Part shown: positions 30,129 to 32,075 of the stretch, in pieces
How positions within the stretch are numbered: position 1 is the stretch's first letter
How the letters are laid out: every line of letters begins with the position of its first letter
Source of the DNA: Stappia sp. WLB 29
Lineage (GTDB): Bacteria > Pseudomonadota > Alphaproteobacteria > Rhizobiales > Stappiaceae
Direction of reading: 5' to 3'
Length of the DNA stretch: 64,000 nt
Assembly: GCF_023507705.1 (NCBI RefSeq)
Contig: NZ_JALBGD010000005.1
Location: forward strand, 1-64,000
Position numbers and translations under genes: made by a program
Notes under the pieces: generated by a model
The model's database searches: none
What the model saw: the letters and a program-made list of their open reading frames with translations, nothing else
What the model was told of the DNA's origin: nothing

Positions 30129-30635
30129 ATGCTGCGTGTGATCGACGCCGTGTCCCGACTGGCCGGGACGGTGGCGGGCTGGGCCTATTTCGCCACCGCC
30201 CTGATGCTCGGCTACGAGGTGGTGATGCGTTATGTCTTCATCGCCCCGACCATCTGGGCCGAGGAACTGGCGCGCATGCTGCTGGTCTGGGCCACCTTCG
30301 GCGGCGCGGCGATCCTGCTGCACCGGCGCCAGCACATCGCCATCACCCTCTTGACCGATCACCTCTCGCCCCGCCTGCGGCAGGTGCAGGAAGTGTTCGT
30401 CCTGCTCTTCATTGCCGGGCTTGCCGCCGTCATCGTCCATGACGGCGCCGGCATCGCCTACGATTCCTTCCATCGCGGCCGCACCACCGGCTCCATGCTC
30501 GACCTGCCGGCCTGGTGGTCGCAGGTTTCGCTTCCGGCCTGCTTCGCGCTGCTCGGCTTGCAGGCGCTCGTCGAGGCGCTGCGCGTCGCCATCGGCGGGG
30601 TCGACGACCTGCCGCGCGGCTCCGTGGAGCACTAG
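30129..30635 (+). CDS. dctQ: TRAP small permease (second system)
   Basis: A 168-residue membrane subunit of normal DctQ size with four helices. It has the conserved TIWAEELARMLLVWATFGGA motif (about 40-59) and the HIAITLL stretch. It ends SVEH at a TAG stop that forms part of the CTAG flanking the 161-bp inserted element. Without the element its stop would be immediately followed by the dctM ATG. Confidence 0.94.
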   Translation: MLRVIDAVSRLAGTVAGWAYFATALMLGYEVVMRYVFIAPTIWAEELARMLLVWATFGGAAILLHRRQHIAITLLTDHLSPRLRQVQEVFVLLFIAGLAAVIVHDGAGIAYDSFHRGRTTGSMLDLPAWWSQVSLPACFALLGLQALVEALRVAIGGVDDLPRGSVEH

Positions 30636-30796
30636 GTCGTGAACTCACAATTCTGGCCTACCCGAAGGGCGCCGTTCGAGCATCTCACTGCGGCGTCGGA
30701 TCGCTCGGCCGGGGGACCTGCCCCGGCCATCGCGCTCCTCCTGGCATATCATTGCCCGAACGGACGCCGTTTCCGGCACAATTGTGAGTCCACGAC
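30636..30796. mobile_element. 161-bp MITE-like element between dctQ and dctM
   Basis: Terminal inverted repeats: GTCGTGAACTCACAATT (30636-30652) and AATTGTGAGTCCACGAC (30780-30796), 16 of 17 matching. CTAG stands on both sides (30632-30635 and 30797-30800), consistent with a target duplication of CTAG or TA. Subterminal sequences are also related (GGCGCCGTTCG on the left, CGAACGGACGCC on the right). The centre has a perfect hairpin, GGCCGGGG/CCCCGGCC (30707-30714 and 30721-30728). There is no coding capacity, so it is a non-autonomous element. Confidence 0.82.
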
Positions 30797-30800
30797 CTAG

Positions 30801-32075
30801 ATGACCACCATCCTCATCCTCCTGGCGCTCTTCGCCCTGCTGCTGGTCGGCGTGCCGGTCGCCTTCACCATGACCGGCCTCGGCTTCGGCCTGCTCTATT
30901 TCGGCGGCTTCTCGCCGCTCATGGTGCCGCAAGGGCTGCTGTCGGCGGCCGACAGCTTCGTGCTGATCGCCGTGCCGCTGTTCCTCCTGATGTCCAACGT
31001 GCTGCTGAAGGGCGGCGTCGGGCGCGATCTCTTCGCTGCCGTGCAGGCCTGGGTCGGCCACTGGCCGGGCGGCCTTGCCATTGCCACCATCCTGTCCTGC
31101 GGCATCTTCGCGGCGATCTCCGGCTCCTCCGTGGCCACGGCCGCGACCATCGGCACCGTGGCGATCCCGGAGATGACCTCGCGCGGCTATCCCCGCCGCT
31201 TCGTGCTCGGCCTTCTGGCCGCCGGCGGCACGCTCGGCATTCTCATTCCGCCCTCGATCCCGATGATCGTCTACGGCGTCATCACCGAGGAATCGATCAT
31301 CGCCCTGTTCCTGGCCGGCGTCGGTCCGGGCCTGCTGCTGATGGTGCTGTTCATCGCCTGGTCGGTGCTCTATGCGAGCTTTGCCGCCGACTATCAGCCG
31401 AGCCCGCGCGCCACCTGGGACGAGCGCCGGCGCACCGCCATCCGCGCCTTCCCGACCGTGCTGCTCGCCGCCTTCGTCATCGCCGGCATTTACATGGGCA
31501 TCTTCACACCCACCGAGGCGGCGGCCATCGGCTTCCTCGGCTCGCTGATCGTCGTCGGGCCGGTGCTGCGCACCCTCGACTGGCCGAAGTTCCGCGACGC
31601 GGTCGCCGAGGCCATGACCACCACCGTGGCGATCCTGCTGATCGTCGCCGGCGCCAAGGTCTTCGGCAAGGCGATCACCCTCTACCGCATTCCCCAGGAC
31701 ATCTCGCTGTTCCTGTCGGAACACATCGCGACCGCCGGCATGTTCGTGCTGGTCGTCGCCCTCGTCCTGCTGGTCATGGGCCTGTTCCTGGAATCCCTGT
31801 CGATGATCCTGATCATGGTGCCGGTGCTCTCCGGTGCGCTGATGGCGCTCGGCATCGATCCGATCTGGTTCGGCGTCTTCTTCGTCATCATGATCGAATG
31901 CGCCCTGATCACCCCGCCTGTCGGTCTCAATCTCTATGTGATACAGGCGGTCGGAAAGGCGAGCATGGGCGAGGTCGCGACCGGCGTCCTGCCGTTCCTC
32001 GTGATCATGTTGGCCAGCGCCGCCATCATCTTCTGGTGGCCCGCCGTCGCGCTCTACATCCCCTTCCGGCTGTAG
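30801..32075 (+). CDS. dctM: TRAP large permease (second system)
   Basis: A 424-residue channel subunit, about 12 helices, starting LILLALFALLLVGVPVAFTMT and holding FAAISGSSVATAATIGTVAI, LLAAGGTLGILIPPSIPM and the FTPTEAAAIGFLG motif. Its ATG directly follows the right-hand CTAG of the inserted element. The bases just upstream (CACGACCTAG) contain no good ribosome site, so translation may have suffered from the insertion. The coding frame is intact. Confidence 0.95.
   Translation: MTTILILLALFALLLVGVPVAFTMTGLGFGLLYFGGFSPLMVPQGLLSAADSFVLIAVPLFLLMSNVLLKGGVGRDLFAAVQAWVGHWPGGLAIATILSCGIFAAISGSSVATAATIGTVAIPEMTSRGYPRRFVLGLLAAGGTLGILIPPSIPMIVYGVITEESIIALFLAGVGPGLLLMVLFIAWSVLYASFAADYQPSPRATWDERRRTAIRAFPTVLLAAFVIAGIYMGIFTPTEAAAIGFLGSLIVVGPVLRTLDWPKFRDAVAEAMTTTVAILLIVAGAKVFGKAITLYRIPQDISLFLSEHIATAGMFVLVVALVLLVMGLFLESLSMILIMVPVLSGALMALGIDPIWFGVFFVIMIECALITPPVGLNLYVIQAVGKASMGEVATGVLPFLVIMLASAAIIFWWPAVALYIPFRL

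Follow-up and report, generated by a model that had tools for sequence, protein, structure and literature searches.

A non-coding element inserted at the dctQ-dctM junction of Stappia sp. WLB 29 and its folded relatives across the Alphaproteobacteria

The window analyzed here, 64,000 nucleotides of Stappia sp. WLB 29 (contig NZ_JALBGD010000005.1, positions 1 to 64,000), encodes the small and large permeases of a TRAP transporter, and the two genes are separated by CTAG...CTAG, 169 bases counting both CTAGs (Table 1). An earlier note, made from the letters alone, had placed a mobile element in the gap that runs from the end of dctQ to the ATG of dctM, and the sequence bears out that position. 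The element had been described as 161 bp with 17-bp terminal inverted repeats (16 of 17 matching); the ends are indeed inverted, but they extend over 24 nt including CTAG, 22 of 24 complementary, and the unit, counted inside the duplicated TAs, measures 163 bp. The dctQ stop TAG (30633-30635) is made up of the left target TA and the first G of the element. Sequence resembling the element's ends was expected 0.05 times in the window and was found twice, with none beyond the element's own two ends. The only GANTC of the copy lies at 30786, inside closing stem P1. The unit folds at z = -8.8 and -92.6 kcal/mol, and neither a terminator nor a sigma-70 promoter was found within it. Compared with the full unit, about 101 bp comprising arm A (P2) are missing, with the joint between TTCTGGC and TTCCGGC; arm A of the window copy was lost between short direct repeats.

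Table 1. The element in the dctQ-dctM interval, its parts and the flanking genes (positions in the window)
Feature	Coordinates	Strand	Basis
dctQ, TRAP small permease; CTAG at its stop is the target	30129..30635	+	PF04290 (Pfam DctQ)
Left TA of duplicated target	30633..30634	.	Sequence and empty sites in relatives
Element, deletion copy of 264-bp family	30635..30797 (163 bp)	+, family sense orientation	Covariance model R2, E 1.5e-26, exact bounds
Left terminal inverted repeat, 5' half of closing stem P1	30635..30655	+	
Deletion joint, arm A (P2) gone	30653..30660	.	Comparison with L013, L014
Mini-hairpin P3, CCC-GAA-GGG	30661..30669	+	Family structure
Arm B (P4)	30667..30768	+	Outer stem 30667-30681 with 30754-30768
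Inner GC-rich hairpin of arm B	30707-30714 with 30721-30728	+	
Right terminal inverted repeat, 3' half of closing stem P1	30777..30797	-	
Right TA of duplicated target	30798..30799	.	Sequence and empty sites in relatives
dctM, TRAP large permease, begins straight after element	30801..32075	+	PF06808 (Pfam DctM), TIGR00786

The insertion is real, with C^TA^G in the stop codon of dctQ as its target. Comparison of the junction in close relatives, as the note had proposed, showed that the insert is absent from all 13 other Stappia-type genomes of the genus and that three of the 13 (G002, G008 and G012) carry the exact empty site, GTGGAGCACTAG followed directly by ATGACC or ATGACG (CACTAG and then ATG). 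The direct TAG-ATG junction that had been predicted upon removal of the element with one CTAG is therefore the very sequence of these three relatives. The dctQ stop was restored as TAG because the first base of the element is G. Conservation of the insert here in distant species, which the note had held to count against its reading, was not seen, and the insert is not fixed at this junction. CTAG is present on both sides as claimed, but the duplication across the family is that of TA within YTAR, with CTAG the commonest target.

Searching for the ends and the body revealed about 10 related places elsewhere in the same genome, as well as copies in congeners. Most aligned copies from this genome and the genus are 263-265 bp long, and two (C36b and C32a) lack arm B instead of arm A, with the joint at CGCCGTT. 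The closed genome G002 contains at least 24 full copies, and four more genus genomes contain a few each. Close copies occur in one genus only, and insertion sites are common to different species in only a few cases. We note four individual loci in the WLB 29 genome. A full 264-bp copy sits in the TAG stop codon of a second TRAP dctM (G000:C36:107551-109085, L015). A 232-bp copy with two right-type ends (G000:C32:46298-46535, L005) is apparently a chimera or a rearranged copy, while the copy at G000:C8:3762-4247 (L019) is followed by a partial repeat of copy and flank with N between, which looks like an assembly fault. Finally, a subthreshold match to the Rfam anti-hemB family (RF02837; 35.3 bits, cut-off 49.5) lies beside one copy on the minus strand of L014:1827-1909 (G000:C37).

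Placement exactly in a stop codon is frequent. Of 45 Stappia-type copies, a simple gene caller put 25 exactly at a stop codon, and the count rises to 27 when the dctQ copy and the second dctM copy (contig C36), both miscalled by the script, are included. Background YTAR sites are distributed 8 in stop codons to 38 intergenic (odds ratio 9, p = 7e-6), and background CTAG sites alone are distributed 5 to 11 (odds ratio 4, p = 0.03). The bias also appears in other genera, where 11 of 34 copies but 9 of 206 YTAR sites coincide with a stop codon (p = 7e-6). There is no clear orientation bias, with 13 sense and 16 antisense copies in a hand count that includes the two miscalled ones. Thus, the exact placement at the dctQ-dctM junction is a habit of the family and no peculiarity of this operon. 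The simplest reading is that preference for the rare YTAR, together with survival of the harmless insertions, explains the stop-codon placement.

How far the family extends was approached through a copy on a Phyllobacterium plasmid, 66% identical over the full length, which served as an entry point to wider relatives. Plain DNA search gave matches in 29 of 397 genomes of the order. A covariance model built on 22 diverse copies, with the five best candidates per genome scored, found relatives in 92 of the 397 (55 of 141 genera) and in 33 of 385 genomes (31 of 277 genera) of the class Alphaproteobacteria, the weakest class-level matches (E 1e-5 to 1e-8) being possible fragments or errors. The length is constant, at 260-273 bp in 67 representative diverse copies. 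An artifact of a model that recognizes the fold only is ruled out, as a sequence-only profile trained on copies of the order picks up 22 of the 28 copies of other orders and none in shuffled or control DNA, and as the window element is the sole covariance-model match in 163 kb (window plus RNase P loci). A coding interior is likewise rejected, since fully open frames are scattered over all six frames and the length modulo 3 varies. No Rfam 15 family gave a covariance-model match over the element, and no such family was found in the literature, in a search that covered subscription papers thinly and lay outside ISfinder. One full copy lies on an IMG/VR contig classed as viral (L330:8317-8582), a possible vehicle for spread. 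We are nearly certain that the element is an IS427-type MITE and that its family is class-wide. The reading that we prefer as a whole, to which we give a probability of roughly 0.72, is that of an old, Alphaproteobacteria-wide non-autonomous transposable element with a fixed length of about 265 bp when intact. The earlier note had the non-autonomous nature, the inverted ends and the CTAG/TA insertion right, but it did not foresee the origin of the copy by deletion from a 264-bp unit, the class-wide family, the conserved fold, the switching of ends or the family's habit of stop-codon placement.

Across the family, TA within YTAR is duplicated and each copy carries its own matched pair of ends. 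The identity between the left and right ends of a copy averages 0.95 over 20 nt, versus 0.48 to the ends of other lineages. In genome G707, copies have interiors that are 80-81% identical and ends that are 40-60% identical, and in genome G024 the corresponding values are 76-81% and 53-62%. On these alignments, the ends have been renewed while the interior persisted. The ends resemble those of IS5-family, IS427-type insertion sequences of about 820-850 bp that are flanked by TA, and the resemblance is confined to the ends. At L077, the right end matches in 18 of 18 positions and the transposase is an IS5-family DDE enzyme (NF033580, DUF4096, DDE_Tnp_1). Plasmid insertion sequences of Paracoccus (L184, 832 bp) and Geminicoccaceae (L185, 826 bp) match in 14-17 of 18 positions and are TA flanked. 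The insertion sequences are bounded by CTA..TAG, which amounts to TA duplication at YTAR. Related copies and transposons with such ends thus exist, and the lack of either was the second finding that the note had said would speak against it.

Which transposase serves the Stappia-type ends is a narrower question. The note had called the element non-autonomous with its parent outside the window, and we agree; no end-matched transposase element occurs in the window, and no mobilizer with a Stappia-type end pair and a transposase between was found in 14 genus genomes. The insertion sequences of the genus carry ends used by other branches of the family, as at L135, whose left end is GGGTCAGGACCCATTAAT. 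Outside the Rhizobiales, no mobilizer emerged for ends such as GAGC... or GCCCGC... among the few insertion sequences compared, and the end comparison as a whole covered few of them. IS630, which also targets TA, was considered as a mobilizer and rejected, as no DDE_3 transposase was found in the genome. Exact end matches in Gluconacetobacter (L080) and in a Bacteroidia MAG (L082) each lack a second end close by and seem fortuitous. Separately, an 849-bp IS5-family element in the genus (L116, G009:C19) has CTAG flanks and ends GGTCGTGTTGACAAAGTG, 17 of 18 paired, the first seven bases of which are the same as in the window element and differ beyond. Moreover, in G002 an 821-bp IS5-family insertion sequence (ends AGGCCTGTGGGGATTCA) is found in the terminal CTAG of the element (L122, L128 and L134), which accounts for three of its five sites in that genome. 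Thus, the ends of the element also act as landing sites.

The interior is conserved as a structure. The family consensus is predicted to form a closed four-way junction composed of P1, which pairs the ends, arm A (P2), mini-hairpin P3 and arm B (P4). Changes on both sides compensate one another in 76 of 90 pairs. Paired cells amount to 91.2%, versus 73.2% in shuffles and 33-45% in slid structures; the prediction used this very alignment, which biases the contrasts in its favor, but a bias of that kind should produce a much smaller effect than the one seen. We conclude from the statistics that compensatory change keeps the predicted closed four-way-junction fold and does so symmetrically on both strands. 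When pairs were defined from Watson-Crick matches only, a strand-neutral choice, there were 257 G.T and 226 A.C combinations over 85 pairs, versus 145 and 26 over 61 pairs in RNase P of the same class under the same treatment. G.T and A.C are thus nearly balanced, unlike in RNase P, and therefore the pairing is not kept as an RNA of one strand. An RNA function on one strand only is disfavored by these counts. Rather, the symmetry suggests a constraint at the DNA level or on both strands, and copying between the arms fits it as well. In a separate observation, the closing positions of arms A and B (alignment columns 32, 127, 137 and 234) switch in step, T-A with C-G giving way to C-G with T-A, as though there were two versions of the junction.

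A rival reading has the fold serving the host as RNA. A large number of copies, in either orientation, sit right at the 3' end of a gene, such that RNA of both strands would be made and the strand symmetry would also be explained. There, a long hairpin could block exonucleases, end transcription or be cut by RNase III, and the interior would be conserved for that purpose, a mode that has been described for NEMIS and REP-type repeats and that the -92.6 kcal/mol of the window copy would suit. The window copy, however, has no terminator signature, and the stop-codon placement is already explained by the YTAR target and the survival of harmless insertions. Moreover, the position itself is not conserved, as sites are rarely common to species. 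We regard such a host function as unlikely, though not negligible.

Pairing might also be maintained without any function. If one arm were copied from the other during replication, by template switching at imperfect palindromes, then the stems would stay matched, strand symmetry would follow, and stems would change quickly and in concert, as they do among copies of one genome and in the ends. Copying between arms should erase bulges and internal loops, however, and these are kept, as are an invariant G.A and a mismatch that covaries between A.G and C.A. The non-Watson-Crick pair beside the invariant G.A changes from A.G (35 copies) to C.A (20 copies) in many families, a change beyond what copying between arms would produce. 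Constant length and loop sequences conserved throughout the class are left unexplained as well. Neutral pairing seems to us a rather unlikely account of the fold. A role at the DNA level is a possibility that we place a little short of even.

How the folded element spreads may be pictured as follows. On our preferred reading, IS5-family transposases of the IS427 type move it in trans into YTAR, with duplication of TA. In the window, the site of entry was the CTAG at the end of dctQ, where TAG was re-formed as the stop codon. We speculate that a folded single strand, present on the lagging strand or in an extruded cruciform, helps the element's own mobilization, perhaps by holding the ends together, and that the interior is kept for this reason. 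Renewal of the ends may then let the element exploit a succession of IS427-type transposases. On this tentative proposal, which we hold at somewhat less than even odds, the element consists solely of a conserved folded core found throughout the class, its four-way-junction DNA fold is under selection, and it outlives its transposases by exchange of ends while settling in stop codons, where the harm is slight.

The insertion may also affect dctM. The best anti-Shine-Dalgarno duplex upstream of dctM is -5.6 kcal/mol in the reconstructed empty site and -7.4 kcal/mol in relatives, and it falls to -3.9 kcal/mol with the element present. In addition, the -92.6 kcal/mol hairpin now stands between the dctQ stop and the dctM start. 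The element would uncouple dctM from the translation of dctQ and put more than 160 bases between the GGAG ribosome site and the dctM start, and dctM output would therefore probably be lowered. DctM synthesis is likely reduced or uncoupled, to judge by the sequence. Alternatively, the hairpin might bridge the junction. The ends of the element pair fully, so the GGAG at the end of dctQ and the AUG of dctM flank the base of the stem, and the modeled fold could set one beside the other and leave dctM translation little affected. Phage T4 offers known examples of hairpins that place a ribosome site close to its start. A translating ribosome would open the stem, however, and initiation beside a very stable stem is usually poor. 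We find bridging improbable and favor reduced or uncoupled synthesis of DctM.

By anatomy, the element is a MITE, as it is short and non-coding and has inverted repeats, TA duplication with empty sites, dispersed copies and an end-matched insertion sequence. Known prokaryotic MITEs include RUP with IS630-Spn1, Correia/NEMIS and ERIC (reviewed in PMC2229807 and PMC10969869). Like these, the element is short, non-coding and multicopy, has inverted ends with a terminal TA, is mostly intergenic and is presumed to be moved in trans. Those MITEs, however, have been reported, each with ends of its own, from a single genus or a few, whereas the present family spans a class at constant length and retains a conserved interior of two arms, although the ends vary from lineage to lineage and even among copies of one genome. 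One might take the element for nothing more than a young MITE of the usual sort, left over when a single insertion sequence of the genus underwent internal deletion. Its close copies within a single genus, its non-coding interior, its inverted ends and its TA duplication would fit that view, but the view is very improbable given relatives of the same length and fold across the order and class and an interior without significant match in insertion sequences that have like ends.

The insertion sequences nearest to the element are IS427 and, in Brucella, IS711/IS6501 (IS5 family, IS427 type), which share its kinds of ends, its YTAR target and its TA duplication. They encode a transposase in about 820-850 bp, however, whereas the element encodes nothing and has an unrelated interior. 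Bru-RS1 and Bru-RS2 of Brucella are about 103-105 bp in size. Both are palindromic repeats that attract IS711, which duplicates the TA of YTAR (PMC2266754), and by description the element is comparable in that its terminal CTAG receives an IS5-family insertion sequence in G002. The nearest named alphaproteobacterial family is CIR, the CcrM-associated intergenic repeats of Caulobacter and Brucella, from which the element is set apart by description. As summarized in a review, CIR are about 110 bp, with two arms and a linker, unpaired ends and GANTC at the terminal loop (Chen and Shapiro 2003, via PMC2229807). To the extent of that summary, both are alphaproteobacterial, conserved between species, two armed, intergenic and terminated by TA, but the present family is 260-273 bp with paired ends, and GANTC, in the window copy that was checked for it, lies in the closing stem instead of the terminal loop.

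The common view of bacterial MITEs is that they arise by deletion from a single insertion sequence and do not last long. In this family, the interior has been conserved throughout a class despite changing ends, and thus the enduring unit looks to be the core and not the ends. Two questions become testable: what a non-coding element requires in addition to its ends, and whether transposition is aided by folded DNA. For annotators, there is now a family, absent from Rfam 15, to be recognized in stop codons and inside operons.
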